A stretch of 64,000 nt of DNA, from positions 310,001-374,000 of the forward strand of contig FCOD02000002.1 of the NCBI GenBank assembly GCA_001544655.2, read 5' to 3'. Numbering within the stretch: position 1 is the stretch's first letter; every line of letters starts with the position of its first letter. Below are positions 9,817 through 55,485 of this stretch, one piece after another. The stretch is from Caballeronia turbans (GTDB lineage Bacteria > Pseudomonadota > Gammaproteobacteria > Burkholderiales > Burkholderiaceae). Made by a program: the position numbers and the translations under genes. The notes under the pieces were generated by a model. The model searched no databases. It saw only the letters and a list, made by a program, of their open reading frames with translations, and had not been told where the DNA came from.

Positions 9817-9843
9817 GGTCGTGTCGTGAATAAGAGAACGGAT

Positions 9844-10803
9844 TCAGCGATGAAACTCGGGAAGCACATATGCGGCGACTTCCTCGATGATATCGCGCGC
9901 AGGCCTTCGTTCCGGTGTGATGTTGAGCGTCACGTGATGCGTGCCGCTGTCGCGCATCTCATGCAGGAGCGCCATGAGCGAGCGATGGCCCGTGCGATAA
10001 CCGAGCGAAATATCGGTTGCGGGCTCATCGGCGTCGTCGCTGAGATCGAGCCGCATTGCGACGCCGAACGCACGAAAGGCCCCGGACGCCGCACGATCCA
10101 CTGCCGCGCGCCACATGCTGTATCGCCCGCGCTGCGCTTGCGGCTCGCGATGATAAGTCATCCAGCCAAGCGAGTGACGCGCAATCCAGTCGACGCTCTG
10201 TCCGCCGGAACCGACGGCAAGCATTGGAATGGAAACGCTCCGGCGAGGCAGCAAATAGAACTCGGGCGCGCCTTCGGGTGCCTGATCGGGAATCACGCGA
10301 GAGGGCACGGTAACGGCTGCGGCGAGGGTGGCCCAATGCTGTTTGTACAGTTCCCGCCGGTTATCGGGATCACGGCCGAAAGCCGCATATTCCGGCGGAC
10401 GATCGCCTGAACCGACACCGAGAATGAAGCGTCCCTGCGATAGCGTGTCGACGGAAATCGCGCCTTTCGCGACGTGAAGCGGATGTCTGAGTGTCAACAC
10501 GATCGCGCCGCTGATCAGCGCGATGCGTTCGGTATTGGATGCGAGCGCGCCGAGTAGCACCCACGGGTCGAGATGCCCGACCGGGTCCGGATAATCGATG
10601 CTATTGAGCGGCACGTCCCGAACCCACAGCGCTCGAAAGCCGAGCTTATCGGCGAGTCGCGCGAGCGCGATCTGCTCGTTGAAGTCGACTGCGGTTTGGT
10701 TATCGCATGTGATCGGCAATGTGATGCCGATAGAGAGCTTGTCTTGCGCAAACACCGCATTCGCGATGGAAGACGAGGCCAGAGTGTTTTCGCTTGCGGT
10801 CAT
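9844..10803 (-). CDS. LLM-class (luciferase-like) flavin-dependent oxidoreductase
   Basis: A 319-residue protein of the bacterial luciferase-like fold: LADKLGFRALWVRDVPL near the N-terminus, SDTLSQGRF-like substrate/flavin loop (SVDTLSQGRFILGVGSGDRP), and a C-terminal barrel end (HHVTLNI). Such enzymes use reduced FMN or F420; in beta-proteobacteria FMNH2 is expected. The start is placed at 10803 (MTASENT). A longer frame exists but would run into the terminator and 3' end of the symporter gene. Clustered with an amidase, so a role in degrading a nitrogen-containing compound is an inference only. Confidence 0.85.
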   Translation of the reverse strand: MTASENTLASSSIANAVFAQDKLSIGITLPITCDNQTAVDFNEQIALARLADKLGFRALWVRDVPLNSIDYPDPVGHLDPWVLLGALASNTERIALISGAIVLTLRHPLHVAKGAISVDTLSQGRFILGVGSGDRPPEYAAFGRDPDNRRELYKQHWATLAAAVTVPSRVIPDQAPEGAPEFYLLPRRSVSIPMLAVGSGGQSVDWIARHSLGWMTYHREPQAQRGRYSMWRAAVDRAASGAFRAFGVAMRLDLSDDADEPATDISLGYRTGHRSLMALLHEMRDSGTHHVTLNITPERRPARDIIEEVAAYVLPEFHR

Positions 10804-10860
10804 GACACGCATTGCGTCAAGTAGAGGGCTTGACGCCGATGGTATCACTGCATGTGCAAA

Positions 10861-10891
10861 CAATGCCCGGCGCAATGAGGCACGGGCATTG
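10861..10891 (-). terminator. Intrinsic terminator after the symporter gene
   Basis: Nine-base-pair arms CAATGCCCG/CGGGCATTG enclose a 13-base loop. On the minus strand the hairpin is followed by TTTG. It starts 16 bases past the symporter stop (10907) and separates that gene from the LLM oxidoreductase start at 10803. Confidence 0.6.
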
Positions 10892-10906
10892 TCGAGCTTT
10901 GGGCGC

Positions 10907-12388
10907 TCAGGCCGAAAGCGCCACGCTGCGTCGCGTGACCAGGGAAACGACATACGTCACGGCGATATTCACGACGAGCGCAATCAGGCCGATATAGACC
11001 GGCCATGAAGCTTCACCGACATGCACCGCATAGACCGGCTTGAGTCCTTGCGAGATCGCGAGGCCTGTGCCCAATACGATGCCGATCAGCCAGCCGAGAA
11101 AGAGGCCAGGCGTCGTCAGCCGGCGCGTGAACAGCGTGAACACGATCGCCGGGAAAATCTGCAGGATCCAGACGCCGCCCAGCAACTGCAAGTCGATTGC
11201 ATACTGCGTCGGAAGGAACACGATGAATAGCAACGCGCCGAACTTGACGACGAGCGACACGAGCTTCGCGGTCGATGCTTCGGCAGCGGACGACATGTCG
11301 GGCGAAACGAGCGGACGCCACAAGTTGCGCGTGAACAGATTCGCCGCGCCAATCGACATGATCGCCGCCGGTACGAGCGCGCTGATCGCGATGGCCGCAG
11401 CCGCGAAGCCCACGAACCACGATGGAAACAGCGCACCGAACAAGGCGGGCACGACATCCGATGCGGACTTCACGCGCACGCCCGCCGCGATCGCCATATA
11501 GCCGAGCAGCGCGATCAGACCGAGCAGCAGCGTATAGGCGGGCAGGAAGATGGCGTTCTTGCGCACCGTCGTCGCGGACGATGACGAGAGCACCGCCGTC
11601 ATCGTATGCGGATACATGAATGCGGCAAGCGCCGAGCCCAGCGCGAGCGAAGCATACGCCGTGAATTGACCCGGCTTGAGGATGATGCCTGTCGGGCCGC
11701 CCTTAGCCTTGAAGTATTGATCGGCCGAATCGAACACATGCGCGTACCCGCCGAGCTTCGCTGGAATGAGCCATACCGCAGCGATCACGACGATATAGAT
11801 CATGATGTCTTTCACGAACGCAATCATGGCGGGGGCGCGCAGCCCGCTCGTATAGGTATAGAGCGCGAGGATCACGAATGCGATGATAAGCGGCAGTTCG
11901 CCCGTCACGCCGAGACCCTTGATGACCACTTGCATGCCGACGAGTTGCAGCGCGATATAAGGCATGGTCGCGACGATGCCCGTGATCGCCACCGCTGCGG
12001 GGAACCATTTGCCGCCGTATTCACCCTGCACGTAATCGGCGCCCGTGATGTGATTCTTCGCATGAGCGATCTTCCACAACCTGGGCATCACTGCGAATAC
12101 GAAAGGATAGACAATGATCGTGTAAGGCAGCGCGAAGAAGCCGTACGCACCTACTGAATAGACGAGCGCCGGCACAGCAATCACGGTATAGGCGGTATAG
12201 AAATCGCCGCCGACGAGGAACCACGAAATCAACACGCCGAATTGGCGGCCGCCCAGGCCCCATTCGTGGAGCTGCGTGAGATCGCCGCGTTTCCAGCGTG
12301 CGGCAAAGAAGCCGACGACGGTCACGAGCGCAAAGAACGCGATGAAGATCGTCATCGCAACTGGATCGACGGGCGTGAGATCGTTCAT
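10907..12388 (-). CDS. Sodium:solute symporter (SSS family, monocarboxylate-type)
   Basis: A 493-residue polytopic membrane protein with about 13 hydrophobic segments. The first helices include FLVGGDFYTAYTVIAVPALVY, and TGADYVQGEYGG follows, typical of the SSS branch that includes the rhizobial MctP monocarboxylate permease. The start ATG at 12388 overlaps the stop of the DUF3311 gene in an ATGA arrangement, with AGGGG upstream. The pair DUF3311 + SSS is a recurrent two-component unit. The substrate may be a small carboxylate, but this is not determined by sequence. Confidence 0.88.
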   Translation of the reverse strand: MNDLTPVDPVAMTIFIAFFALVTVVGFFAARWKRGDLTQLHEWGLGGRQFGVLISWFLVGGDFYTAYTVIAVPALVYSVGAYGFFALPYTIIVYPFVFAVMPRLWKIAHAKNHITGADYVQGEYGGKWFPAAVAITGIVATMPYIALQLVGMQVVIKGLGVTGELPLIIAFVILALYTYTSGLRAPAMIAFVKDIMIYIVVIAAVWLIPAKLGGYAHVFDSADQYFKAKGGPTGIILKPGQFTAYASLALGSALAAFMYPHTMTAVLSSSSATTVRKNAIFLPAYTLLLGLIALLGYMAIAAGVRVKSASDVVPALFGALFPSWFVGFAAAAIAISALVPAAIMSIGAANLFTRNLWRPLVSPDMSSAAEASTAKLVSLVVKFGALLFIVFLPTQYAIDLQLLGGVWILQIFPAIVFTLFTRRLTTPGLFLGWLIGIVLGTGLAISQGLKPVYAVHVGEASWPVYIGLIALVVNIAVTYVVSLVTRRSVALSA

Positions 12389-12585
12389 TTCAGGCCCCTG
12401 TACACGATATAAAGCAGGAGCGACGTGAGCGGCACCCAAAGGAACTGATACCAGTAGAAGAACGGAAAACCCGCGAATGAAGGGTGCGTGTCGTTATAGA
12501 ACGGCAGCCAGAGCAGCGCGACGTAGGGTATCAATAGCGCGACCCAAAGCCATGGGCTGGCGGACGCATCGTTGTTGGATTCCAA
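12385..12585 (-). CDS. DUF3311 small membrane protein, symporter partner
   Basis: A 66-residue protein with two hydrophobic helices (about residues 12-28 and 42-62) separated by an aromatic-rich loop (FAGFPFFYWYQFLW), matching DUF3311. The start codon is TTG at 12583-12585 with GAGGAGA seven bases upstream; no in-frame ATG exists. Its stop overlaps the symporter start by four bases, so translation is coupled and the product is probably a small accessory subunit of the transporter. Confidence 0.85.
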   Translation of the reverse strand: MESNNDASASPWLWVALLIPYVALLWLPFYNDTHPSFAGFPFFYWYQFLWVPLTSLLLYIVYRGLK

Positions 12586-14224: not shown

Positions 14225-14643
14225 AGGTGTAGTTGACGTGCGATAAGACGCTTATGATACCGGCGCAGCGCAAGGTTTTCGTCTTTCCGCGCACCGTCAT
14301 GCAGCATGAAGATCAACCTCTGCTCGTGCAGGGTTCGTTCACAAAGCGCTTTTTTGGTGCACGCTCTCGGGAATCCGACATCCGGACGTGCCTTATTCAT
14401 GGAGGTGAACCGCTCAGACCATTGGCATTGAAGTTGCTTTTTCTCATTCGGCACTGGGCTGCCCGCGCAATCGATGCTCCGCAGGGATCAAAGAGCATCG
14501 CGCTACGAGGTCGCCTATCGACGTAATCCATGGCATCGGATGCGCCGCGTCTTTCGGGCTCTTCAAGCGTTTCGCGAGTGCAACCAGAATAACGAGCCAA
14601 GGGAACCGCCACCCCGGCATGCACTTCATTTGGAAGACCGGTT
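14225..14643. other. 419-base intergenic region between yceH and the amidoligase locus
   Basis: This divergent region must hold the promoters of the yceH-mnmD pair and of the ATP-grasp operon. Short open frames on both strands lack family resemblance and plausible starts. I see no clear repeat, RNA or operator. Confidence 0.4.
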
Positions 14644-16116
14644 ATGACGCAAGCATTCTTCAACGAAATGTTCGAGCGCAGCGATCTGGAGGCGCGCGGC
14701 GTGCCGGCGGCGGCATTTCGCGGCGTAGGCGATCCACGCACGCACTACCGCGATTTCCTTGCCTGGCTCTCCGCGCAAAGCGAGCAGCAGATCGAGATCA
14801 AGCGCGCGGAAGCGGATCTCAACTTCAGACGTGTCGGCATTACCTTCGCGGTCTATGGAACGAGCGATTTGCCGGGCATCATTCCGGAGCGCACGATTCC
14901 CTTCGATGTCATTCCGCGTATCTTTCCCGCCGACGAATGGCGCGCGCTGGAGCGCGGACTGCGGCAGCGCGTGAATGCGCTCAACCGCTTCATCCACGAT
15001 ATCTATCACGAGCAGGACATCATCCGCGCGGGCATCATTCCCGAGGCGCAGATACTCGGCAACGCGCAATACCGTCCCGAGATGCGCGGCGTCGATGTCG
15101 CACGCGATATCTATGCGCATATCGCGGGTATCGATATCGTGCGAGCGGGACAGGGCGAGTTCTACGTGCTCGAAGATAACTTGCGCGTTCCATCCGGCGT
15201 CTCTTACATGCTGGAAAACCGCAAGATGATGATGCGGCTCTTTCCCGATCTTTTCGCGCGCAATCGCGTTGCGCCGGTTGCGCATTACCCGGACTTGCTG
15301 CTCGACACCTTGCGCGCGGCCGCGCCGGCTGCCGCCGAGAATCCGACCATCGTCGTCATGACGCCGGGAATGTATAACTCGGCTTATTTCGAGCACGCGT
15401 TTCTCGCGCAGCAGATGGGCGTCGAGCTGGTCGAAGGACAGGATCTCTTCGTCGACAACGACTATCTGTACATGCGTACTACGCAGGGGCCGCAGCGCGT
15501 CGATGTGATCTACCGCCGCGTCGACGATGACTTTCTTGATCCGCTCGTGTTCCGGCCGGATTCGACGCTCGGCGTGCCGGGATTGATCGGCGCATATCGC
15601 GCGGGGAATGTCTCGCTGTGCAATGCGGTCGGCACCGGCATAGCGGACGATAAATCGATCTATCCCTACGTACCGGACATGGTGCGTTTCTATCTCGGCG
15701 AAGAGCCGATTCTGAACAACGTCCCGACGTGGATGTGCCGAAAGCCCGACGATCTCGCCTACGTGCTCGATCATCTGCCCGAGCTCGTCGTGAAGGAAAC
15801 GCATGGCGCGGGCGGTTATGGAATGCTTGTCGGGCCTGCGTCGAGCGCGGCGCAGATCGCGGAGTTTCGCGCGGTGCTAGAAGCCCATCCGGAGAAATAC
15901 ATCGCGCAGCCGACCCTTGCGCTTTCCACATGTCCGACGTATGTCGAGGCGGGCATCGCGCCGCGACATATCGACTTGCGTCCCTTCGTACTGTCGGGTA
16001 CTGACGTGCGCATGGTCCCGGGCGGGCTGACGCGGGTCGCGTTGCGAGAAGGCTCGCTCGTCGTCAATTCATCGCAAGGCGGCGGCACGAAGGATACGTG
16101 GGTATTGGAACGCTGA
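14644..16116 (+). CDS. Circularly permuted ATP-grasp protein (CP_ATPgrasp type 2)
   Basis: A 490-residue stand-alone member of the circularly permuted ATP-grasp family (formerly DUF404/DUF407). Family marks include YVLEDNLRVPSGVSYMLENR, DSTLGVPGL, a VVKETHGAGGYGMLVG ATP-binding loop near residue 385, and SSQGGGTKDTWVL at the C-terminus. ATP-grasp enzymes join a carboxylate to an amine through an acyl-phosphate; comparative genomics has predicted that this branch makes peptide or amide bonds. The next gene encodes the alpha-E partner, 72 bases downstream. The same pair is repeated as one fused protein at 21927. The acceptor and donor are unknown. Confidence 0.9.
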   Translation: MTQAFFNEMFERSDLEARGVPAAAFRGVGDPRTHYRDFLAWLSAQSEQQIEIKRAEADLNFRRVGITFAVYGTSDLPGIIPERTIPFDVIPRIFPADEWRALERGLRQRVNALNRFIHDIYHEQDIIRAGIIPEAQILGNAQYRPEMRGVDVARDIYAHIAGIDIVRAGQGEFYVLEDNLRVPSGVSYMLENRKMMMRLFPDLFARNRVAPVAHYPDLLLDTLRAAAPAAAENPTIVVMTPGMYNSAYFEHAFLAQQMGVELVEGQDLFVDNDYLYMRTTQGPQRVDVIYRRVDDDFLDPLVFRPDSTLGVPGLIGAYRAGNVSLCNAVGTGIADDKSIYPYVPDMVRFYLGEEPILNNVPTWMCRKPDDLAYVLDHLPELVVKETHGAGGYGMLVGPASSAAQIAEFRAVLEAHPEKYIAQPTLALSTCPTYVEAGIAPRHIDLRPFVLSGTDVRMVPGGLTRVALREGSLVVNSSQGGGTKDTWVLER

Positions 16117-16188
16117 GGAGACGCTGAGGAAAAGTCCTGAAGAAAGCACTGCGTCACTCAAGACAACGACAAACAACCGGGAACACCC

Positions 16189-17208
16189 ATGCTGAGCCGT
16201 ACCGCGGATCATCTCTTCTGGATGGCGCGCTATACCGAACGCGCCGAAAACACTGCCCGGATGCTCGATGCGAACTATCAGCTCTCGCTCTTGCCGCAGT
16301 CCGATGAATATGCGGAACTTGGCTGGCGCGCGATGCTGTCGATATCGGAACTGAGCGGCATCTATTCGGCCGCGCACCACGGCATGAAAAGCCGCGACGT
16401 GATCGACTTCATGGCGCGCGATTTATCGAACCCGTCGTCGATCGTCAGTTGTTTGCGCGCCGCGCGTGAGAATGCGCGAGCCGTGCGCAGCTCCACCAAT
16501 AGCGAGTTATGGGAATCGCTCAATACGACGTGGCTCGACTGTCAGCGCATGCTTGCCGACGGCATTCTCGAACGCGAGCCTTATACGTTTTTCGAGTGGG
16601 TAAAGTTTCGCTCGCACCTTTCGCGCGGCGTGCAGCTCGGCACACTCGTCAAGGACGACGCATTCTATTTCATGCGTCTCGGGACTTTCATCGAACGAGC
16701 GGACAATACGGCGCGCATTCTCGACGTCAAGTTCGAAATGATGGAACAACGCGCCGACACTTCAGCACAACCGTTCGATTATCACCATTGGGTGGCGGTG
16801 CTCGGTTCGGTGTCAGGCTTCGAGGTATATCGCCGGGTCTATCGCGATGTCATTACGCCTGAACGCGTGGCGGGACTCCTGATTCTCTATCGCGACTGGC
16901 CGCGTTCGCTTGCGGCGAGCATCGCGGAAGTGGAGCAGCTAATCGGACAGGTGACGAAAGGGCGCGATACGGAAGCGACGCGGCTCGCGGCGCAACTGAG
17001 CGCGGAACTGAAGAACGGGCGGATCGGCGACATTCTTAAAGGCGGCTTGCATGCCTATCTCGTCGATTTTCTCGCACGCGTGAATGATCTCGCGGGTCGC
17101 GTAAGCCGCGAGTTTTTGTTGCCGATCGCGCAGGAGCCGCCCGCGCAAACGCAGTCTCAAACGCAGACGCAGTCACAAGGTCAGACGCAGTCGCAAGGCA
17201 AAGAATGA
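16189..17208 (+). CDS. Alpha-E domain protein (DUF403)
   Basis: A 339-residue all-helical protein. The opening LSRTADHLFWMARYTERAENTARMLDANY is the diagnostic alpha-E motif, repeated in weaker form later (RLGTFIERADNTARILDVKF). Alpha-E proteins almost always accompany circularly permuted ATP-grasp proteins and transglutaminases, and probably scaffold or complete the ligase. The final 24 residues are a Gln/Thr/Ser repeat (QTQSQ units) that is not part of the domain. The start at 16189 has only a weak GGGA upstream. Confidence 0.9.
   Translation: MLSRTADHLFWMARYTERAENTARMLDANYQLSLLPQSDEYAELGWRAMLSISELSGIYSAAHHGMKSRDVIDFMARDLSNPSSIVSCLRAARENARAVRSSTNSELWESLNTTWLDCQRMLADGILEREPYTFFEWVKFRSHLSRGVQLGTLVKDDAFYFMRLGTFIERADNTARILDVKFEMMEQRADTSAQPFDYHHWVAVLGSVSGFEVYRRVYRDVITPERVAGLLILYRDWPRSLAASIAEVEQLIGQVTKGRDTEATRLAAQLSAELKNGRIGDILKGGLHAYLVDFLARVNDLAGRVSREFLLPIAQEPPAQTQSQTQTQSQGQTQSQGKE
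17135..17205 (+). repeat. Short tandem repeat encoding the QTQSQ tail
   Basis: Imperfect copies of CAAACGCAG / CAGACGCAGTC are reiterated at the end of the alpha-E gene and encode alternating Gln, Thr and Ser. Copies in phase with codons would let the tail change length without frameshift. Confidence 0.6.
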
Positions 17209-17218
17209 GCGCGGGTTA

Positions 17219-18292
17219 TCAGCGCTTGGCCGACGCCGCCGCGACGACGCGATGCACAAAGCGCAGTTTGTCGATGACGGCCGGCGCAAGCGTAAAGGGA
17301 TAACCGTCGGGCATGCCAAGGCTGCGATTCAAACTGTTCAGGACATAAGTGAGCGGAAACCATCGTTTCATCAGGTTATCGAACGTCGTTTCCTCGACCG
17401 GCGTCTGGTCGGTGAGCGTCGGCTCGTGCGGGCTGTCGGGCACGAGCACGAGGCCGCACGATACTGCGGTGTCGAGCGTATCGACGATATGCAGGTAATG
17501 CGCCCATGTTTCGGCCCAGTCTTCCCACGGATGCATCGTGGCATAGGCGCTGATGAAGTTGTCTTCCCACTGAGCGGGCGGGCCTTCCTTGTAATGACGA
17601 TCGAGCGCGGCGGCGTAGTCGGCTTGCTCGTCGCCGAATGCGGTGCGAAACGGCGCAATGCGCGCGGTGTCGGCGATCAGGCGATCGAAGAAATAGTGCC
17701 CGGACTCATGACGGAAATGACCGAGCAAGGTGCGATACGGCTCGTGAAGCGCGGAGCGCGTTTTCTCTCGATGAGCGTCGTCGGCTTCGGCGATGTTGAG
17801 CGTGATGATGCCGTTGTTATGACCGGTCATTACGCCGTGGCCTTGCGCATCGCCTTCGAGGAACTGGAATTCGAGGCCGCGTTCAGGGTCTTCCTGACGC
17901 GACTTCACAGACAGGCCCAGTTCCGAGAAGGTGTAAAGCAGGCGGCGCTTGGCGGCTTCGATGCGATACCAGTAGACGCGGTTCTCCGGCGTCGAGAGAT
18001 TGGGAATGGTGCTCGTCAGCTGGCACGAACAGCAGAGTGCCTCGGGCGTATCCGGGGCGGGTGCGGGAACGACCCAGTTGCAGACGTTTTCCACCGCGTA
18101 GTTATGGCACGGCCGATAGAAGAGATCTTTCGCAAGCGGATGCAGGCTGCGCCAGCGGCCGTCGTCGGTTTCCTCGAACGCGCTGATCTGATTGATCTCG
18201 GGCACGTAGCCGAGCCGCGCGTCACAGTTTTCGCAATGCGTGTTTTCGAAAAAAACGAGTTGATTGCAACGGTTGCAGTGAAAGGTCTTCAT
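17219..18292 (-). CDS. Zinc-ribbon putative metallopeptidase (Peptidase_Mx type)
   Basis: A 357-residue protein. It has an N-terminal zinc ribbon (Cys6, Cys9, Cys20, Cys23), a second Cys cluster (CCSC near 87-90), and a catalytic HESGH motif at residues 195-199, the HExxH signature of zincin peptidases. A conserved WAETWAHYLH segment follows. It matches the putative zinc-binding metallopeptidase family often found next to the transglutaminase/ATP-grasp genes. It is encoded against the surrounding operon and is divergent from the 1144-residue transglutaminase gene, sharing a 161-base control region with it. It could process the product or protein target of the ligase system; that is inference. 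Confidence 0.85.
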   Translation of the reverse strand: MKTFHCNRCNQLVFFENTHCENCDARLGYVPEINQISAFEETDDGRWRSLHPLAKDLFYRPCHNYAVENVCNWVVPAPAPDTPEALCCSCQLTSTIPNLSTPENRVYWYRIEAAKRRLLYTFSELGLSVKSRQEDPERGLEFQFLEGDAQGHGVMTGHNNGIITLNIAEADDAHREKTRSALHEPYRTLLGHFRHESGHYFFDRLIADTARIAPFRTAFGDEQADYAAALDRHYKEGPPAQWEDNFISAYATMHPWEDWAETWAHYLHIVDTLDTAVSCGLVLVPDSPHEPTLTDQTPVEETTFDNLMKRWFPLTYVLNSLNRSLGMPDGYPFTLAPAVIDKLRFVHRVVAAASAKR

Positions 18293-18453
18293 CGTGTGGC
18301 CGGTGGAAGTGTTATCGCGCGATGTGCTGTGCGCGTTGTTGGCGGTGTAGACGCAAACATCATGCCGCGAAAAGGCCGTTTTTCCATGACAAGCAGAAAC
18401 CGCATTGCAGCGCGCGTTGCGTGCACGGCGTCAATTGAATAAAGGAGTCCGGC

Positions 18454-21400
18454 GTGTCCATTCGTGTCGCATTGAACCATGTCACGCATTACCGATATGA
18501 CCGGCTCGTCGGTCTTTCGCCGCAAGTCGTGCGACTGCGGCCGGCGCCGCATTGCCGCACGCCGATCGTGTCGTATTCGATGCGCGTCGAGCCCGAGGAT
18601 CATTTCATCAACTGGCAGCAGGATGCCTTTGCGAACTATCAGGCGCGCCTTGTTTTCCCGGAGAAAACGCGCGAATTCAAGGTGACGGTCGATCTCGTTG
18701 CCGAAATGGCCGTGTACAACCCGTTCGATTTCTTTCTCGAACCCGCCGCCGAAAAATTTCCATTCGCGTACGCGCCTGAATTGCTGCACGATCTAGCGCC
18801 CTACATGGTCAAGCGCGAGCCGACTCCGCGCTTCGCGGCATTCGTCGAAAGTATCGATCGTTCGCCGCGCGCCACGATCGATTTCCTCGTCGAGCTCAAT
18901 CAGCGGCTTTCGCATGAGATTCGTTATCTGATCCGCATGGAGCCGGGGGTGCAGACGCCGGAGGAAACGCTCGAAAGCGCGGCCGGCTCGTGCCGCGATT
19001 CCGGGTGGCTGCTCGTCGAAACTCTGCGTCATCTGGGCCTCGCCGCGCGTTTCGTGTCGGGTTATCTGCTGCAACTCGCGCCCGATACGAAATCGCTCGA
19101 TGGCCCGAGCGGAACTGAAGTCGATTTCACCGATCTGCATGCGTGGTGCGAAGTGTTTTTGCCCGGTGCGGGCTGGATCGGTTTCGATCCGACGTCCGGC
19201 CTGCTTGCGGGCGAAGGACATATTCCCGTCGCGTGCACACCGGAGCCGAGCAGCGCGGCGCCTGTTTCCGGCGCGGTGGACGAATGCGAAGTCGAATTCG
19301 TTCATTCGATGTCGATCGAACGCGTGCTCGAAACGCCGCGCGTCACGAAGCCGTATAGCGAGGAAGACTGGAGCGCGGTGCTGCGTATGGGCGAGCAGGT
19401 GGATGCGCAATTGAATGCATCGGACGTGCGCCTCACGATGGGGGGCGAGCCCACTTACGTCTCGGTGCGCGACCGCGACGAGCCGGAATGGAACACCGAC
19501 GCGCTCGGACCGACGAAGCGCGCCTACGCTGTTTCGCTGATGGACAAGCTGCGCGCGCAGTATGGCGCGCGTGGCTTCCTGCACATCGGACAGGGCAAGT
19601 GGTATCCGGGCGAGCAGTTGCCGCGCTGGGCGCTGTCGCTGTTCTGGCGGGCGGACGGCGAACCGTGCTGGCACGATCCGGCGCTCTTCGCGGATGAACG
19701 GCAGGCTGCGTCGTACACGTCGGATGACGCCGCGCGATTCATTCGCCATCTCGCGGGCAAGCTTTCTTTGGATTCAAAATACATTCAACCGGGGTACGAG
19801 GACACGTGGTACTACCTGTGGCGCGAGCGGCGTTTGCCGGTCAACGTCGATCCGTTCGACTCGCGCCTCGGCGACGAACTGGAACGTGCCCGCCTGCGTC
19901 GTGTGTTCGATGCGGGTCTGCCGTCTGTCACGGGCTACGCATTGCCGATCGCGCGTGAGGACGGCGGCGGCATGCAGCCGGGACGCTGGATAAGCGGGCC
20001 GTGGTTCTTCCGCGACGAGCGCATGTTCTTGGTTCCGGGCGATTCACCCATGGGATACCGCGTGCCGCTCGACTCGCTGCCGTGGGTTTCCGAAGGCGAT
20101 TATCCGTGGCAGCACGCGCACGATCCGTTCGCGCCGTCCACGCCATTGCGTACGGCGACTGAATTACGCATGCAATATGCGGATCTGGATAATGAATCGC
20201 GCACGCAAAATGCCAGTGCGGACGTGACGGGGCACGCCGGCGCACCGGGTCAATCGCGGGAGCGCAAGCCTCAGCGCGGCGAGTCGGCCGGCTGGATCGC
20301 ACGCATCGCGCTGTGCGTGGAAGCGCGCGATCCTGCGCGGGCGGCCGGTCCCAAAGCGGAGGCCGACGCACTCGAGAAGCTCGGCAACGGCAACAAGCTC
20401 ATGCATGTCTTCATGCCGCCGCTCACCTCGCTCGATGACTATCTCGATCTTCTGTCTGCCGTCGAAGCAACCGCCTCCGATCTCAAGATTCCGGTGATCG
20501 TCGAAGGCTATCCTCCGCCGCGCGATGCGCGCCTGAAGATGTTGCAGGTGACGCCCGACCCGGGCGTGATCGAAGTGAACATTCATCCGGCGGCCAACTG
20601 GAACGATCTCGTCGAGCACACGGAGTTCCTGTACAACGCGGCCCACGAGTCGTATCTGAGCCCGGAAAAGTTCATGCTCGACGGCCGTCACACCGGCACA
20701 GGTGGCGGCAATCACTTCGTGCTCGGTGGCGCGACGCCCGCCGACAGTCCTTTCCTGCGCCGCCCCGATCTTCTCGCGAGCCTGATCCGGTATTGGCACA
20801 ACCACCCATCGTTGTCGATGTTGTTCTCCGGCATGTTCATTGGCCCGACGAGTCAGGCGCCTCGTGTCGATGAAGCGCGCAACGATCAGGTGTATGAACT
20901 GGAGATCGCGTTCTACGAATTGCAGCGTCAACTCGATCTGCTCGGCGGCCGTGACAGTGCGACCGTGCCGCCCTGGCTCATCGACCGCATCCTGCGAAAC
21001 ATCCTGATCGATGTGACGGGTAATACACATCGCGCGGAGTTCTGCATCGACAAGCTGTATTCGCCCGATGGCCCGACCGGGCGGCTCGGCTTGCTGGAAC
21101 TGCGCGGCTTCGAGATGCCGCCTCACGCGCGCATGAGTCTCGTGCAGCAACTGCTGTTGCGCGCACTCGTCGCGCGATTCTGGAACACGCCGTATACCGC
21201 GCGGCTCACGCGCTGGGGCACGGAACTGCATGATCGCTTCATGCTCGGCACCTTCGTGCAGATGGACTTCGATGACGTGCTCGCCGAACTGCGCGAATCA
21301 GGCTTCGCATTCGAGCAAAGCTGGTTCGCACCGCACTTCGAGTTTCGCTTCCCGCTCGTCGGCGCATACGATACGAACGGCATCGCGCTCACGATTCGCA

Positions 21401-21888
21401 ATGCGCTCGAACCGTGGCATGTGATGGGCGAAGAGGGCGCGATCGGCGGCACGGTGCGTTTCGTGGATTCGTCCGTCGAACGACTCGAAGTGCGCGTGCT
21501 CGGCCTCAATGGCAATCGACACGTCGTGTCTGTGAACGGACAAGCATTGCCGCTGCAACCGACGGGACGCGTAAGCGAATACGTCGCGGGCGTGCGCTTT
21601 CGCGCGTGGTCACAGGCGGCATCGCTGCATCCGACGATCGACGTGCATGCGCCGCTCACCTTCGATATCGTCGATACATGGACGGGACGCGCCATCGGCG
21701 GGTGCCAGTATCATGTCGCGCATCCGGGCGGGCGTAACTATCAGACCTTCCCCGTCAACGCTTATGAAGCGGAAAGCCGCAGGCGCTCACGCTTCTTCGC
21801 AACCGGTCATACGCCCGGCGCAATGCACGTCGAAGCCCGCGAACGCAGCCTCGAGTTTCCGTTCACACTCGACCTGCGCTATCGTTGA
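18454..21888 (+). CDS. Large transglutaminase-family protein with DUF2126
   Basis: A 1144-residue protein. Residues 1-80 are the N-terminal transglutaminase beta domain. The papain-like transglutaminase core follows with Cys180 (AAGSCRDSGWLL), His229 (DLHAWCEVFL) and Asp245 (WIGFDPTSG). From about residue 320 to the end lies DUF2126, beginning near LTMGGEPTYVS and containing HTGTGGGNHFVLGG, a region that itself resembles a ligase/hydrolase fold of unknown role. Transglutaminase folds can form or cleave amide bonds. It starts with GTG at 18454, eight bases after AAAGGAG. It leads a three-gene operon with the fused ATP-grasp/alpha-E gene and a second transglutaminase. Confidence 0.92.
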   Translation: MSIRVALNHVTHYRYDRLVGLSPQVVRLRPAPHCRTPIVSYSMRVEPEDHFINWQQDAFANYQARLVFPEKTREFKVTVDLVAEMAVYNPFDFFLEPAAEKFPFAYAPELLHDLAPYMVKREPTPRFAAFVESIDRSPRATIDFLVELNQRLSHEIRYLIRMEPGVQTPEETLESAAGSCRDSGWLLVETLRHLGLAARFVSGYLLQLAPDTKSLDGPSGTEVDFTDLHAWCEVFLPGAGWIGFDPTSGLLAGEGHIPVACTPEPSSAAPVSGAVDECEVEFVHSMSIERVLETPRVTKPYSEEDWSAVLRMGEQVDAQLNASDVRLTMGGEPTYVSVRDRDEPEWNTDALGPTKRAYAVSLMDKLRAQYGARGFLHIGQGKWYPGEQLPRWALSLFWRADGEPCWHDPALFADERQAASYTSDDAARFIRHLAGKLSLDSKYIQPGYEDTWYYLWRERRLPVNVDPFDSRLGDELERARLRRVFDAGLPSVTGYALPIAREDGGGMQPGRWISGPWFFRDERMFLVPGDSPMGYRVPLDSLPWVSEGDYPWQHAHDPFAPSTPLRTATELRMQYADLDNESRTQNASADVTGHAGAPGQSRERKPQRGESAGWIARIALCVEARDPARAAGPKAEADALEKLGNGNKLMHVFMPPLTSLDDYLDLLSAVEATASDLKIPVIVEGYPPPRDARLKMLQVTPDPGVIEVNIHPAANWNDLVEHTEFLYNAAHESYLSPEKFMLDGRHTGTGGGNHFVLGGATPADSPFLRRPDLLASLIRYWHNHPSLSMLFSGMFIGPTSQAPRVDEARNDQVYELEIAFYELQRQLDLLGGRDSATVPPWLIDRILRNILIDVTGNTHRAEFCIDKLYSPDGPTGRLGLLELRGFEMPPHARMSLVQQLLLRALVARFWNTPYTARLTRWGTELHDRFMLGTFVQMDFDDVLAELRESGFAFEQSWFAPHFEFRFPLVGAYDTNGIALTIRNALEPWHVMGEEGAIGGTVRFVDSSVERLEVRVLGLNGNRHVVSVNGQALPLQPTGRVSEYVAGVRFRAWSQAASLHPTIDVHAPLTFDIVDTWTGRAIGGCQYHVAHPGGRNYQTFPVNAYEAESRRRSRFFATGHTPGAMHVEARERSLEFPFTLDLRYR

Positions 21889-21926
21889 AAATGCAATCAT
21901 CGTTCGAATAAAGAGCAGAGACGACA

Positions 21927-24551
21927 TTGGCCTATCAATCGACCTTGCCCTTCGACATCGCCGCGGCACGCATCGATGCGCTGGCGTTGCTGCGCACGTT
22001 GCCTGCGCGAGAAGGGCATTGGGACGAACTGCGCGATGCGGCGGGCCAGTTGCGCGAGCCGTGGCGGCACTTCTTCGAATTGCTCGGCGAGCAGGGCATC
22101 GCGCGGCTCGACGATGGTGTCGATGCCGTTGCACAGCAAGTGCGCGACAACGACATCACGTACAACGTTTATGCCGATAACGGCAAGCCGCGCGCGTGGT
22201 CGCTCGATCTCCTGCCGCTCATCATCGATGAAAAAGAGTGGGCGGTAATCGAACGCGGCGTCGCGCAGCGCGCACGGCTGATGGAAGCGATCGTCGCCGA
22301 TGTCTACGGCCCGCAGACGCTGCTGCAACGGGGGCTCTTGCCGAGCGCGCTCGTGTTCGGACATCCCGGCTATTTGCGCGCGGTGAAGGGCTTCGTGCCG
22401 CCCCTCGGCCGCTTTCTGCAGATCGTCGCGGTGGATCTCGCTCGCGCGCCATCGGGCGCGTGGACCGTGATTGCGCATCGGACGGAAGTGCCGTCGGGCC
22501 TCGGCTATGCGCTGGAAAACAGACTTATCGTCGCGAGCCTGTTTGCCGATCCGTTTCGTGCGATGCGCGTGAGCCGTCTCGCCGAGACCTATGCGCAACT
22601 CATCGCGACCATCGCGCAGGCCGCGCGCGCGACGATGCGCGATGACGAAGACGGCCGCAGCGATGCATCGAACGATGCGCCGCATATCGCGTTGCTGAGT
22701 CCTGGCCCGTTCAGCGAAACGTACTTCGAGCATATATTTCTTGCGCGGTATCTCGGCGTGACGCTCGTCGAAGGAAAGGATCTCACCGTTCGTCATGACA
22801 AGCTCTATCTCAAGACACTCGCCGGCTTGTCGCGCGTGCATGCGGTGGTGCGGCGCCTGGACGATGCGTTCTGCGATCCCGTTGAATTGCGCGCGGACTC
22901 GACGATAGGCGTGCCGGGTCTCTTGCAGGTGATGCGCGCGGGCAACGTGATGGTGTCGAACATGCCGGGCGCGGGCTTCACGGAATCGCCTGCGCTCAAT
23001 GCATTTCTGCCCGGCATAGCGAAAGCGTTGCTGGACGAAAGACTCGAGTTGCCGACCGTGCCGACATGGTGGTGCGGCGAGGAAGCCGCGCGCCGCGAAG
23101 TCTTCGAGCGCGTCGACAGCGCCCTCATTGCGCCGACATGGCCGGGCGCGCAGGCCGATCACGCACCGGGCATCGATGCTGGCGTGCAGGACATCGCGGC
23201 ATGGCGCGAGCGCATCGAACGTGCGCCGGATGTCTTCACGGTGCAGGAGAATCTGCCGTTTTCCACCGCGCCGCGCTTTCATGACGGCGCGATCGGATCG
23301 CGTCCCTGCGTGCTGCGCGCCTATGCAATCGCCAACATCGACGGAAGCTGGAGCGTGATGCCCGGTGGCTTCACGCGGCTCGCGGCCGACAAGCGCGCGA
23401 CGGTGTCCATGCAGTTCGGCGGCAGCAGTGTCGATACATGGGTGATGTCGAGTCAGCCGGGCGGCGCGGTATCGTTGCGTCCCACGCCGATGAAGCCGGG
23501 CGATTTGCGCAAGCATCGCATCGTATCGAGCCGCGCCGCGGAGAATCTGTTTTGGGCGGGGCGTTATGGCGAGCGCGCTGAAAACAACGTGCGCTTGTGT
23601 CGTCTTTTGCTCGGGATGCTCGATGGCAGTGTCGCCGAAGAACTCTTTCCGACGCTCGCGGAACTCGCATCGGAATGCGGGCTGATTCCATCGGGCGATA
23701 CGCTCGCGCGCAGCACGCCGCAAGCGTTCGAACGCGTGCTCGTTGCAGGGCTGCCGGAATCGGGCAGGGCGACGAGCATCGGCAGCAATCTCGCGGATCA
23801 GGCGCGCGCATGCGGCGAGATACGCGACCGGCTTTCGACGGATCACTGGCGCACGATTCTCGCATCACGCAATGACTTTCGCGATGCGCTCGCGCGCCTC
23901 GTGTTCAGCGATAGCGCTGACGAAAGCGCCGTGCGCATCGGTCGCGACTACGATCGTTTGATGCTCGCGAACGCGCTCGAACATCTTGCAACGCAACTCT
24001 GCGCGATCAGCGGCGCGCAGGGCGATCGCATGACGCGCGATGAAGCATGGCGGCTCCTCTTCATTGGACGGCACATCGAGCGCGTCTCGACGATGGCGAC
24101 GATTCTGCGCGTGGTCGCCGAGCGCGGGACGCTCGCATCGCCCGCTGGCTTCGATCTGCTCTTGCAGTTCTTCGACAGCACGCTCACGTATCGTTCGCTC
24201 TATCCGGGCAGGCTCGAAGTGCCGGCGCTCATCGATTTGATCGTAGTCGATCAGACCAATCCGCGCGGGCTCTATGGCGTTTATGCACGCCTGCGCACGA
24301 AGCTCGACGAGATCGCGGCCGCTGCCGGCGGTGCACGCCGCGCACAAGCGACGCGTTTCGCGGACCTGCTCGTTCACGCCGATGCATTGCCGGATCTCGC
24401 CGCGCTGTGCGGCACGAATGAGAACGGCCGTCATGATGCGTTGATCGCGCTGTGCGACAGACTCGTCGCGTCGGTTTTCGCGGCATCGAATGAAGTCAGT
24501 GCCCGCTACTTCAGTCATGCGAACACGCTTTGCGCACAGGTGTCGTCATGA
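21927..24551 (+). CDS. Fused circularly permuted ATP-grasp and alpha-E protein
   Basis: An 874-residue fusion. Residues 1 to about 525 match the circularly permuted ATP-grasp family (VPSGLGYALENRL, DSTIGVPGL, FGGSSVDTWV). From about residue 530, HRIVSSRAAENLFWAGRYGERAENN opens an alpha-E domain. It therefore holds in one chain what the genes at 14644 and 16189 encode separately, evidence that the two domains act together. Start is TTG at 21927; a GAG-rich site precedes it and no better start is seen. A 38-base gap separates it from the preceding gene, and the next gene starts inside its stop codon. Confidence 0.9.
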   Translation: MAYQSTLPFDIAAARIDALALLRTLPAREGHWDELRDAAGQLREPWRHFFELLGEQGIARLDDGVDAVAQQVRDNDITYNVYADNGKPRAWSLDLLPLIIDEKEWAVIERGVAQRARLMEAIVADVYGPQTLLQRGLLPSALVFGHPGYLRAVKGFVPPLGRFLQIVAVDLARAPSGAWTVIAHRTEVPSGLGYALENRLIVASLFADPFRAMRVSRLAETYAQLIATIAQAARATMRDDEDGRSDASNDAPHIALLSPGPFSETYFEHIFLARYLGVTLVEGKDLTVRHDKLYLKTLAGLSRVHAVVRRLDDAFCDPVELRADSTIGVPGLLQVMRAGNVMVSNMPGAGFTESPALNAFLPGIAKALLDERLELPTVPTWWCGEEAARREVFERVDSALIAPTWPGAQADHAPGIDAGVQDIAAWRERIERAPDVFTVQENLPFSTAPRFHDGAIGSRPCVLRAYAIANIDGSWSVMPGGFTRLAADKRATVSMQFGGSSVDTWVMSSQPGGAVSLRPTPMKPGDLRKHRIVSSRAAENLFWAGRYGERAENNVRLCRLLLGMLDGSVAEELFPTLAELASECGLIPSGDTLARSTPQAFERVLVAGLPESGRATSIGSNLADQARACGEIRDRLSTDHWRTILASRNDFRDALARLVFSDSADESAVRIGRDYDRLMLANALEHLATQLCAISGAQGDRMTRDEAWRLLFIGRHIERVSTMATILRVVAERGTLASPAGFDLLLQFFDSTLTYRSLYPGRLEVPALIDLIVVDQTNPRGLYGVYARLRTKLDEIAAAAGGARRAQATRFADLLVHADALPDLAALCGTNENGRHDALIALCDRLVASVFAASNEVSARYFSHANTLCAQVSS

Positions 24552-25444
24552 CGCTCGGCATGAACGATACCGTGCTCGCGGTGACGCATCGGACGACATA
24601 TCGCTATTCGACGCCGGTTGAAATCGCGCAGCATCTCGCGACCATTCGTCCGTTGCATTGCCCGTGGCAGCAGGTTATCTCGCATACGGAGCGCATCGAG
24701 CCGGTGCCGTCTTATGTGCATAGCCGCGTCGATGCATTCGGCAATGACGTGCTGTACTTCTCGCTCGACGCGTCGCACGAACGTCTTTCGATGACGAGCG
24801 AAACCACGGTGCGGCTCACGCCACGGTGGAATGCGCTCGATGCAGACGCCACGCCGCCGTGGGAAGACGTCGCCGAGCGGCTGCGCTATCGTGCCGGTGA
24901 GTCGTTTTATCCGGAAAGCGAGTTTTGTTATGCGTCGCCCAATATCTCGCTCGATCATGAATTGCGCGCTTATGCGCAAGCGAGTTTCGATGCGGGCACG
25001 CCGCTCGTTGCGGGCGCTATCGATCTGATGCATCGCATTCACGAGGATTTCGACTACAAGCCCTCGGCCACTGCGTTCGATACGCCCGCATCGCGCGCGT
25101 TCGAATTGCGGCATGGCGTGTGCCAGGACTTCTCGCAAGTGATGATCGGCTGTCTGCGCGCGCTCGGGTTGCCGGCGCGCTATGTGAGCGGATATTTGCG
25201 CAACGATCCGCCGCCGGGGCATCCGCGTCTCATCGGCGCGGATGCGTCGCATGCGTGGGTGTCGGTGCATTGTCCGCAAAGCGGATGGATCGATCTCGAT
25301 CCGACCAATGACGTGCTGGCGGACCTCGATCACGTCACGCTTGCGACGGGGCGCGATTATAGCGATGTGTCGTTATTGCGCGGGATGATTCTCGGCGGCG
25401 GTGCGCATCATGTGGATGTGGCGGTAAATGTGCTGGCATTATGA
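24548..25444 (+). CDS. Transglutaminase-like cysteine protein
   Basis: A 298-residue protein with the N-terminal bacterial transglutaminase beta domain (VTHRTTYRYSTPVE) and a complete catalytic triad: Cys192 (RHGVCQDFSQVM), His235 (SHAWVSV) and Asp251 (WIDLDPTND). The start ATG at 24548 overlaps the stop of the ATP-grasp/alpha-E gene (ATGA), so the proteins are translationally coupled. It is the short counterpart of the DUF2126 protein. Its reaction may be amide formation, transfer or hydrolysis; the triad alone does not decide. Confidence 0.92.
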   Translation: MTLGMNDTVLAVTHRTTYRYSTPVEIAQHLATIRPLHCPWQQVISHTERIEPVPSYVHSRVDAFGNDVLYFSLDASHERLSMTSETTVRLTPRWNALDADATPPWEDVAERLRYRAGESFYPESEFCYASPNISLDHELRAYAQASFDAGTPLVAGAIDLMHRIHEDFDYKPSATAFDTPASRAFELRHGVCQDFSQVMIGCLRALGLPARYVSGYLRNDPPPGHPRLIGADASHAWVSVHCPQSGWIDLDPTNDVLADLDHVTLATGRDYSDVSLLRGMILGGGAHHVDVAVNVLAL

Positions 25445-25520
25445 GATGCACGTGTCTTGCTCTGGAAGCCTGCGGCTAAAATCGAACGGATTGACTTGAT
25501 TGAAGCTAGTGGAGAGCACG

Positions 25521-26387
25521 ATGGATCTTGCTGTTTTAGTGTACGTCGACAACCACCCAACGATGCTCGAAGAGTTCGATTGGCTTTATAAGAGCCTGAT
25601 TTATTCGGGTGTAATTTCGCGCAGCGGAATAATCGCGGTGTGCAATCCAGACATCGCAAATGCGTTGCCAGACGACGATCGCATCACGATCATTCCCAGC
25701 GTGCCCTATGCGCAACGCCATTCCGAATGGAGCGGCTACAAGTTCATCAATTCCGTCGCGAACCTGATCGAGCAACCCGTGCTCGATGCGTGCAAGCGTT
25801 TCGAATTCGTCCTCAAGACCGATTGCGATACATTCGTCACGCCCGCCTTGCGCGACTTCCGTCCATCGGGACTGTGCGCGGGCGTGGGCGGCTATGCGTA
25901 CCAGGATGACGTGCGTGTGAAGTTATCGGAAGTGAGCGCGCGATGGGGTTATCCGCATTCTGGAATGCATAACGTCGGTGCGTCGGTGCTCGGTTCGGCG
26001 CAGTGCGTGACGAACTTTCTCATCGCGCAGATGCAAGCATGCAATCGCTTGTGGCGCGAAGAGTTTAGCGAGTACGAGGGCGTGTGGCCCGGATGGTGCA
26101 AGCAGGTGGTCACAATGTACGCGGGCGAGCTCGCGCTTCGCAGCACGTATCCGCAACGTTGCTCTCTCGGGCTGCTGGACGCGTTCCCTACGTCTGACAG
26201 AAAGCTGTCGAGCGACGTATTGCATGTCCATGCGTGGCAGACAGATAGCTACTGGTCCAAACACATTTATCGCGCGGGTGGGTATGCGCATATCGAGCGC
26301 GACAGCATCGACCGCGCGACGCTCGGCGGCTATTGTCACTGGCTCGCGGAAGCAAGCATCGACGAAATCAGGCGCGCGGCACAGTAA
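25521..26387 (+). CDS. Uncharacterised protein, possible GT-A-fold glycosyltransferase
   Basis: A 288-residue protein I do not recognise firmly. The N-terminus alternates hydrophobic strands and helices (LAVLVYVD, SGIIAVCNPD). Residues 96-104 read FVLKTDCDT, so Asp101-Cys102-Asp103 sits at the end of a hydrophobic strand like the DxD metal/nucleotide-sugar site of GT-A enzymes. A late conserved-looking block (VLHVHAWQTDSYWSKHIYRAGGY) is rich in His and Trp. The start at 25521 is chosen because GGAG lies six bases upstream; an earlier TTG frame lacks one. It lies 76 bases after the amidoligase operon on the same strand and may or may not belong to it. Confidence 0.6.
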   Translation: MDLAVLVYVDNHPTMLEEFDWLYKSLIYSGVISRSGIIAVCNPDIANALPDDDRITIIPSVPYAQRHSEWSGYKFINSVANLIEQPVLDACKRFEFVLKTDCDTFVTPALRDFRPSGLCAGVGGYAYQDDVRVKLSEVSARWGYPHSGMHNVGASVLGSAQCVTNFLIAQMQACNRLWREEFSEYEGVWPGWCKQVVTMYAGELALRSTYPQRCSLGLLDAFPTSDRKLSSDVLHVHAWQTDSYWSKHIYRAGGYAHIERDSIDRATLGGYCHWLAEASIDEIRRAAQ

Positions 26388-54649: not shown

Positions 54650-54726
54650 CGTTGTCTCCTGGGTATTGTCGATGCAACGTCTACTTGAATCTCGATAGCG
54701 ATGCGAACGGTTGCGGCATCTTCAAG

Positions 54727-54741
54727 GCAAGTCATGTGCCA
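54727..54741 (-). promoter_or_regulatory. Sigma-54 promoter of the PQQ dehydrogenase
   Basis: On the minus strand TGGCAC-N5-TTGC is a perfect core match to the -24/-12 consensus, with GG and GC separated by ten bases. Transcription would begin near 54716, giving a leader of about 67 bases before the ATG at 54649. Confidence 0.75.
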
Positions 54742-54863
54742 TTGATGATTCATGTGCCCGCTTGCCTTGCTGCATGCGGATCTCATGCACGAGGAGCTGG
54801 ACGCAAGCGTCGTGCGATGTTCATGCAGGGGTGTTGCATCGTGGAGCAGTGGGGCGATCGACG

Positions 54864-54880
54864 TGTTGCCCGATGTGACA
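54864..54880. promoter_or_regulatory. TGT-N11-ACA activator site upstream of the PQQ dehydrogenase
   Basis: TGT and ACA are separated by 11 bases (extended GTTG/CAAC symmetry). It lies about 125 bases upstream of the -24 element, a normal enhancer distance for a sigma-54 activator. The same spacing occurs twice before pqqA. Confidence 0.5.
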
Positions 54881-54888
54881 ACGCGCGT

Positions 54889-55170
54889 TCAGTCGATCCA
54901 GCCGAGACGGCGCGCTTCATCGATGAAGCGATAGACATCGGCGGCGAGCCCCGCCATTCCGAAGCGCGCTTCCAGCTCGCCGATGATGTCGTCGAGTTCG
55001 CGCGTTCCATCACAGCGCGCGAGTATTTCGCCAGCGCTGCGATTCAGTTCGATGCTGCCGCGCGGATGCACGATCTCGCACGTGCGCATGCCCGCATGCC
55101 AATGCAGCTTAAGAGGCGCACGCAAGCGCGGGCGCGTGGGTGCGCCCGTATGCGCGGTCGTTGAGTTCAT
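54889..55170 (-). CDS. pqqD: PqqD: PqqA-binding chaperone for PQQ biosynthesis
   Basis: A 93-residue protein with the PqqD/RRE fold: RLRAPLKLHW, RGSIELNRSAGEILARCDG, ELDDIIGELEARF and VYRFIDEARRLGWI. PqqD holds the PqqA leader and presents it to the radical SAM enzyme PqqE. It lies 65 bases after pqqA on the same strand; pqqB, pqqC and pqqE are absent from the window. No clear ribosome-binding site precedes the ATG at 55170. Confidence 0.88.
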   Translation of the reverse strand: MNSTTAHTGAPTRPRLRAPLKLHWHAGMRTCEIVHPRGSIELNRSAGEILARCDGTRELDDIIGELEARFGMAGLAADVYRFIDEARRLGWID

Positions 55171-55235
55171 GTGGGACGGGAAGAGAAGGACGCAGGCCCG
55201 GGCGCTGTTCGACCCGGGCTTGCTTCATCGAAGCG

Positions 55236-55310
55236 TTAGCGTGTGGCGATATACATCGTGATCTCAAAGCCGAAGCGCAGATCGGTGAAGGCAGGCGTCG
55301 TCCATTGCAT
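55236..55310 (-). CDS. pqqA: PqqA: precursor peptide of pyrroloquinoline quinone
   Basis: A 24-residue peptide: MQWTTPAFTDLRFGFEITMY followed by IATR. Glu16 and Tyr20, in the conserved E-x-x-x-Y arrangement, are the two residues that become PQQ. The start is the ATG at 55310, six bases after AGGAG; an ATG two codons earlier abuts the site. Together with pqqD it could supply or amplify precursor when the dehydrogenase is needed. Confidence 0.92.
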   Translation of the reverse strand: MQWTTPAFTDLRFGFEITMYIATR

Positions 55311-55372
55311 GTTCATCTCCTAAGGTGATGTTCGAGTCGGATCGCGAAGGATTCGCAATCGGACATCGAAAA

Positions 55373-55387
55373 TGCAAGCTCCATGCC
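55373..55387 (-). promoter_or_regulatory. Sigma-54 promoter of pqqA
   Basis: Minus strand GGCATG-GAGC-TTGCA: GG and GC are ten bases apart, as required for sigma-54. One base of the -24 core differs from TGGCACG. A leader of about 52 bases would precede pqqA. Confidence 0.6.
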
Positions 55388-55464
55388 TTCGAAGAAAACG
55401 CAGTGCATGTGCACGGTTTAGCCTTTCAGTTTCATTTCGAAGTAGCGCGATTCACGTGCCGCGC

Positions 55465-55481: not shown

Positions 55482-55485
55482 GGGG

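Follow-up and report, generated by a model that had tools for sequence, protein, structure and literature searches.

The closest described relatives of the locus studied here are the Anbu operons, in which genes for an ATP-grasp protein, an alpha-E protein, and a transglutaminase-like protein are accompanied by one for Anbu, a proteasome relative, and the genes I35_5080-83 of Burkholderia cenocepacia H111. Systems of the same families are said to have been predicted by Iyer et al. in 2009 as amidoligase systems, with peptide ligation as the predicted theme. According to the available parts of the published reports, Anbu-operon genes of Pseudomonas putida rise under nitrogen limitation (PMC8050072; PMC3325844), and the B. 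cenocepacia genes belong to an NtrC/sigma-54 regulon, with values of -6.0 to -9.4 in ntrC-mutant tables that we read as fold changes (PMC5491218). Here we analyzed a window of 64,000 nucleotides from Caballeronia turbans (contig FCOD02000002.1, positions 310,001 to 374,000; genome of 7.35 Mb in 120 contigs) and, within it, a six-gene locus at positions 14644 to 25444. Its stand-alone ATP-grasp is of the Anbu-operon type, the alpha-E protein is shared, and nitrogen control of homologues is common to both; however, the locus itself has no Anbu gene, and it is best read as related to the Anbu operon but without Anbu. With the B. cenocepacia genes, it has in common an ATP-grasp (DUF404/407), an alpha-E protein (DUF403), and two transglutaminase-like genes, one of them large, whereas a zinc peptidase and a fused ATP-grasp are not named with those genes in the available part of that report (PMC5491218). 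With confidence that is about evenly balanced, we propose that the locus is a nitrogen starvation system for forming and cleaving amide (peptide or isopeptide) bonds, in which a pseudo-ATP-grasp serves as a noncatalytic subunit.

The initial annotation had divided the locus into two modules, A and B, and this layout held, as did the gene families that it named: all six genes were recovered at the positions it gave, each with a strong Pfam match. The genes and their promoter sites are as follows.

14346-14360, + strand: NtrC-like inverted repeat GCGCTTTTTTGGTGC, one mismatch to GCACY-N5-RGTGC
14423-14437, + strand: sigma-54 -24/-12 promoter TGGCATTGAAGTTGC, 206 bases before module A
14644-16116, + strand: module A ATP-grasp, CP_ATPgrasp_2 (Pfam, 570 bits), with motifs LEDN, ADDK, VVKETHGAGGYG, and RHIDLRPF intact
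16189-17208, + strand: module A alpha-E protein (Pfam Alpha-E, 300.7 bits)
17219-18292, - strand: zinc metallopeptidase, Peptidase_Mx (Pfam, 366 bits), with an N-terminal zinc ribbon and HESGH
18353-18367, - strand: sigma-54-like site CGGCATGATGTTTGC before the peptidase gene, from a comparative scan
18454-21888, + strand: Bact_transglu_N, Transglut_core, and DUF2126 (1,320 bits for DUF2126) in one transglutaminase (TG) protein, a putative amidoligase (TG-DUF2126)
21927-24551, + strand: degenerate (pseudo) CP_ATPgrasp_2 fused to Alpha-E (Pfam, 440 and 188 bits)
24548-25444 (24530-25444 in the open reading frame list), + strand: second transglutaminase-fold protein, Bact_transglu_N and Transglut_core (Pfam)

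For the last gene, the ATG at 24548, which overlaps the stop codon of the fusion gene as ATGA, is a more likely start than position 24530; the overlap is four bases with the former and 22 bases with the latter. The two genes of module A lie 72 bases apart and TG-DUF2126 ends 38 bases before the fusion gene, and because of these short gaps and the overlap, each module is probably cotranscribed. The peptidase gene had been described as divergent between the modules. It is indeed divergent from module B, with its start 161 bases from that of TG-DUF2126, but it is convergent with module A, with its end 10 bases from that of the alpha-E gene. Pfam describes DUF2126 as a putative amidoligase. The motifs of a Cys-His-Asp triad were found in both transglutaminase-fold proteins (GSCRD, HAW, and DPT in 40 of 40 TG-DUF2126 proteins; GVCQD, HAW, and DPTN in 34 of 34 second transglutaminase proteins), and HExxH was kept in all 23 Peptidase_Mx homologues at the locus. 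An NCBIfam search returned no family for the six genes, and sequence searches against solved structures gave no match for DUF2126, the peptidase, or alpha-E (the last at E values up to 1).

The ATP-grasp of module A resembles 3n6x, a solved circularly permuted ATP-grasp (putative glutathionylspermidine synthase), throughout residues 32 to 489 (E of 2.5e-214, 715.7 bits), with all motifs kept. By analogy with glutathionylspermidine synthetase, ExN binds metal and the lysine and the glycine loop bind ATP. The ligase motifs ExN, ADDK, VVK-x(5)-GGYG, and RHxDLRPF are all present in module A; the conserved ATP-binding residues, whose absence the initial annotation had named as refuting its reading, are thus in place in this protein when it is set against 3n6x and its homologues. 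In the available part of one report, a Yersinia homologue of this ATP-grasp releases phosphate from ATP (PMC6376114). The module A ATP-grasp and the genome's own Anbu-operon copy fall into one clade of 20 rows (support of 100/99) and are of one type, KE-xHGAGGYG. A second type, KPANxSGGYG, accounts for 26 of the 27 stand-alone ATP-grasps at other DUF2126 loci of Gammaproteobacteria. Because module A shares the Anbu-operon type, an Anbu-type module appears to be the working partner, or at least the neighbor, of module B in this lineage.

We then compared the locus across relatives by using 80 named loci that carry the module A ATP-grasp, the best 80 among the matches listed; the nearest named relatives of this protein are from Caballeronia (95 to 97% protein identity). 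In each of the 26 Caballeronia, Paraburkholderia, and Trinickia loci (L004 to L029), the ATP-grasp, TG-DUF2126, the fusion, and the second transglutaminase protein occur together, the last gene running past the end of the fetched locus in L013 and L016. Peptidase_Mx is absent from three of these loci (L021, L022, and L024), and its match in L019 is in two pieces. Within Caballeronia, DUF2126 was found in 44 of 58 genomes, and in every one of these, Peptidase_Mx lies on the opposite strand at a distance of 1.25 to 1.43 kb, measured between the ends of the Pfam matches. Ten of the 14 genomes lacking DUF2126 are small (2.4 to 5.1 Mb), and two of these small genomes (such as G282 and G292 in the sample) retain apparently broken alpha-E remnants, which together suggest that the locus was lost through genome reduction.

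A single sigma-54 match proves nothing by itself, because the window holds 78 matches at up to two mismatches and 76 are expected; the weight therefore lies in the comparison. Using consensus sequences for sigma-54 and NtrC, we found a sigma-54 site with at most one mismatch in the 500 bases upstream of the ATP-grasp gene in 26 of 26 Caballeronia, Paraburkholderia, and Trinickia loci and in 24 of 24 Cupriavidus/Ralstonia-type loci. The scan gave 56 of 84 rows in total, four of the rows without a site being pieces of the window's own genome, and the background was 75 of 1,640 random segments and 3 of 82 reverse strands. Among other gammaproteobacterial stand-alone ATP-grasp genes, 12 of 28 are preceded by such a site. 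In 15 of the 26 related loci, the sigma-54 site is preceded within 140 bases by an NtrC-like palindrome (no more than one mismatch), compared with 47 of 2,600 random and 115 of 5,200 shuffled stretches. The sequence before module A hence combines a -24/-12 element with an upstream NtrC-like site, as in an NtrC/sigma-54 regulon. These sites fit the published nitrogen regulation of homologues, and by analogy, the locus is probably switched on by nitrogen starvation, with NtrC as the putative controller. Besides the window, 12 of 22 other loci have a sigma-54-like site before the peptidase gene, and the 10 without it are Paraburkholderia loci. In L024, which has no peptidase gene, a sigma-54 site precedes TG-DUF2126. 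A scan of the 1,000 bases upstream of the genome's Anbu operon, allowing up to two mismatches, found no sigma-54 site. Elsewhere in the window, a perfect site, TGGCACATGACTTGC (54727-54741, minus strand), lies about 80 bases before a pyrroloquinoline quinone (PQQ) dehydrogenase gene, and a gene for a GAF/sigma-54 activator/Fis protein is nearby; this region (52910-57667) is probably a separate, enhancer-controlled alcohol oxidation unit. A perfect site placed before that gene, with an activator close by, suggests that the sigma-54 pattern is meaningful in this genome.

Next, we examined the partners of the system in a class sample of 274 Gammaproteobacteria genomes, 79 of which have alpha-E. 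All 50 genomes with DUF2126 also have alpha-E (Fisher value of 1.5e-34), as do all 39 genomes with a full-length Peptidase_Mx, defined as a match over 250 bits (1.6e-25); these values overstate independence because the sampled genomes are related, though most family labels in the list stand for one or two genomes. In nine further genomes, Peptidase_Mx is matched only weakly (at 38 bits or less), and alpha-E is missing from seven of these. Because every genome with the full-length protein has alpha-E, Peptidase_Mx is a true partner of the alpha-E system. The initial annotation had asked whether the peptidase co-occurs with the other genes across genomes, and these counts, together with the 44 Caballeronia genomes in which it lies beside DUF2126, answer that it does so nonrandomly. 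Likewise, the recurrence of the gene set in all 26 related loci and the presence of alpha-E in all 50 DUF2126 genomes mean that the gene arrangement is not due to chance. Of the Peptidase_Mx places, 23 of 40 are within 10 kb of alpha-E (a place on contig C51 of the window's genome, G000, was left out), and two of 20 loci from outside the class (L284 and L287) show the same divergent peptidase and TG-DUF2126 arrangement as the window. The place on C51 (L245:5448-7451), away from the locus, consists of a transglutaminase gene followed directly by a second Peptidase_Mx gene.

The hydrolases of the locus could also be read as serving nitrogen salvage, with the transglutaminase-fold proteins and the zinc peptidase hydrolyzing amides for their nitrogen and the ligases making a storage or protective peptide. 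The nitrogen control promoter sites, the two intact transglutaminase triads, the HExxH motif, and the induction of homologues on nitrogen limitation in the available literature would all suit this explanation, and among full-length Peptidase_Mx places, 18 of 41 are within 10 kb of Anbu and 15 of 41 adjoin it. However, full-length Peptidase_Mx and DUF2126 are confined to alpha-E genomes in the class sample, so pure breakdown does not explain the gene set. We regard salvage as unlikely.

Anbu itself was found in 67 class genomes, 66 of which have alpha-E (counting matches of 120 bits or more, which retains 67 of 69 genomes). The possibility that Peptidase_Mx replaces Anbu was rejected, as the two show no anticorrelation within alpha-E genomes (P = 0.38). 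The genes scanned at the window locus include no Anbu. The idea that the genome lacks Anbu altogether also had to be abandoned: a search with PF00227 gave only HslV beside HslU (identities read from gene sizes and order), but a search with a real Anbu protein found a sole match on contig C72, in a complete Anbu operon. This separate operon, the sigma-54/NtrC-type promoter, and Pfam's description of DUF2126 as an amidoligase go beyond the initial annotation.

In contrast to the module A protein, the ATP-grasp half of the module B fusion matches 3n6x with only 213.5 bits and lacks the motifs, with unrelated residues in place of VVKE-xxGxGGYGM; the ExN, ADDK, VVK-x(5)-GGYG, and RHxDLRPF set is not found in this protein. 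To place this loss among homologues, we aligned 82 stand-alone and 38 fused proteins, with the window included in both sets and eight stand-alone proteins that had first been mispicked as fused removed before the motif count. Of the 258 columns invariant (97% or more) in the stand-alone set, the fused set retains 88 (conserved in at least 90% of its members); the columns that it has lost include E177 and N179 (LEDN motif), D335-D336-K337, and the glycine loop at 388 to 393. At related loci, the lysine/glycine loop motif is present in 0 of 37 fused proteins versus 81 of 81 stand-alone proteins. The same held for 40 DUF2126 loci from Gammaproteobacteria, where all 16 fusions are without the ExN pair and the loop and all 27 readable stand-alone proteins keep them (those of L119, with split frames, and L140, at an edge, were left out), and for 20 loci outside the class, one from each family, where all 17 fusions lack the motifs and all 7 stand-alone proteins have them. 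Five further fusions, fetched as a test of the rule, lack the pair and the loop as well. Taken together, the ExN pair and the glycine loop are missing from all 76 fusions of this kind, and the ADDK stretch is lost in the aligned ones (related loci, the 16 gammaproteobacterial fusions, and the 17 from outside the class). A broader rule, that every ATP-grasp/alpha-E fusion is degenerate, was rejected: L244 (7196-9874, genome G258) has a second fusion, with intact ATP-grasp motifs and alpha-E, beside its degenerate fusion and TG-DUF2126. Searches of a library of open-access papers found no report on an inactive or degenerate ATP-grasp of this family.

This loss divides the initial annotation's reading of the locus as amide or peptide forming: it agrees with the intact motifs of module A, but for the module B fusion, the conserved ATP-binding residues are absent by sequence alignment, which is what the annotation itself had said would count against it. 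For the same reason, the fusion does not show two working enzymes joined, as the annotation had taken it to; joint action of the two domains is still supported to some extent by the intact-type fusion in L244.

The 34 degenerate fusions included in a tree of 82 rows lie on one side of a single branch with support of 100/100, and the branch that leads from them to the stand-alone proteins is very long (0.31 plus 1.89 changes per column); placement inside the clade is unsure for some long rows, the motif columns were left in, and the 17 fused proteins from outside the class are not in the tree. The ratio of nonsynonymous to synonymous changes (dN/dS) against four Caballeronia relatives was 0.06 to 0.28 for the ATP-grasp half and 0.09 to 0.31 for the alpha-E half, compared with 0.02 to 0.13 for module A, with synonymous changes near 0.8 to 1.0 for the two more distant relatives. 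These ratios indicate that the fusion is kept by purifying selection and is not decaying. Degenerate fusions were found in 22 of the 274 Gammaproteobacteria genomes, and each of the 22 carries an intact ATP-grasp as well, next to alpha-E or, in G258, fused to it. To find these genomes, we took alpha-E places that scored no more than 245 bits and lay in open frames of at least 844 residues and checked them by sequence, so that the count covers fusions seen by the alpha-E profile. Judged from its sequence, the fused ATP-grasp is probably an ancient pseudoenzyme.

In the mechanism that we propose, the module A ATP-grasp, partnered by alpha-E, would activate a carboxylate by forming an acyl phosphate and then link it to an amine. 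TG-DUF2126 would be a second amidoligase, as predicted, and the second transglutaminase protein may be a transglutaminase-fold thiol hydrolase or transferase; between them, these two would make, move, or cut amide bonds. The fused protein, a putative pseudoenzyme, would act as a noncatalytic scaffold, substrate holder, or regulator that depends on the intact paralogue and may bind partner proteins. Finally, the divergent zinc peptidase may trim or reverse the product and so turn it over.

Several observations weigh against this proposal. The ATP-grasp lysine survives in 11 of the 38 fused proteins in the motif alignment and in 10 of the 16 gammaproteobacterial fusions, so some nucleotide binding by the fused protein is conceivable. 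Together with the 88 retained invariant positions and the purifying selection, the lysine count in Gammaproteobacteria could mean that the fused ATP-grasp has remained a ligase whose nucleotide or metal chemistry is altered; however, both the glutamate and the asparagine of ExN and the GGYG loop are gone from every one of the 76 fusions, as is ADDK from those aligned, and all 22 carriers in the class sample hold an intact paralogue, which make this unlikely. In the fused alpha-E half, only 8 of the 28 invariant positions that are charged or polar are retained (from 37 stand-alone and 17 fused rows), compared with 33 of 74 in the ATP-grasp half. The notion that the alpha-E half is specially preserved while the ATP-grasp half decays was rejected on these figures. 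Because the alpha-E half has diverged as well, the whole fused protein looks to be a specialized paralogue and not a working alpha-E on a dead handle or scaffold. The stand-alone alpha-E of module A is absent from 7 of the 26 related loci (L018, L023, and L025 to L029), all from Paraburkholderia; these loci keep the ATP-grasp and module B and offer a natural test of whether the fused alpha-E substitutes. A sigma-54 site is lacking upstream of the ATP-grasp gene in 24 of 30 other named loci (present in 6), and none of the 24 rows with the peptidase has a separate sigma-54 site for TG-DUF2126, the window being counted twice. For a glutamine synthetase (GS)-like fold and active site, hhalign of DUF2126 against the GS and GCS2 families gave no signal, nor did the control comparison of GS with GCS2. 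In the available part of PMC6376114, the Yersinia operon proteins formed no stable complex in pull-downs, and in that of PMC5666114, the authors rate peptide synthesis as less likely than degradation for Anbu. The initial annotation's statement that no product or substrate is established agrees with the available parts of the cited literature, which name none and show no ligase activity.

The products of the locus could instead be protein conjugates, which would make it a bacterial tagging and untagging system. Earlier authors suggested such a role for Anbu operons, according to the available part of PMC6376114, and ligases and (iso)peptidases are encoded side by side here; however, no tag gene was noticed in the locus, without a systematic search for one, and the accessible portions of the cited literature report no conjugates, so we consider this quite unlikely. 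An equally doubtful extension is that module B is a widespread amide conjugation machine, in which the dead ATP-grasp/alpha-E subunit would present a substrate or tag to the transglutaminase/DUF2126 ligase, would be charged in trans by the intact ATP-grasp, and would be reversed by Peptidase_Mx or Anbu. If true, module B would be a nitrogen starvation tagging and untagging system unlike pupylation or ubiquitin.

That the two modules and the peptidase are neighbors by descent only and act independently is very unlikely: 11 of the 20 loci outside the class have the fusion and TG-DUF2126 without a stand-alone ATP-grasp in the 15 to 18.5 kb fetched (with alpha-E at the edge in L286), and in L030 (Burkholderiaceae bacterium 16), Anbu comes after a module A-type set and the fetched flanks contain no module B, but the genome-wide dependence holds even where the genes are unlinked, for DUF2126 on alpha-E and for the degenerate fusion on an intact ATP-grasp.

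Around the locus, a DUF7164 protein is encoded at 25500 to 26387 of the window and also after the locus in L005; in L004 and L006 to L009, an aldo/keto reductase gene directly follows the locus instead, which points to an optional insertion. DUF7164, the aldo/keto reductase, and the upstream DUF480/methyltransferase genes occupy this position only in Caballeronia loci (L004 to L011, within the fetched flanks), and they were not counted as parts of the system. Farther upstream (8344-12439, minus strand), a row of amidase, luciferase-like monooxygenase, and sodium:solute symporter genes perhaps serves the uptake and breakdown of a nitrogen compound.

DUF2126 occurs in 120 of 398 sampled Pseudomonadota genomes; the gene families of this locus are common in the phylum, yet the available parts of the cited literature name no product for them. 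One of the two annotated ATP-grasps is probably dead, which guides the choice of the protein in which to measure ATP use. Strict co-occurrence with alpha-E makes Peptidase_Mx a likely missing hydrolase of the system, and the promoter before module A gives the condition under which its product should be sought.

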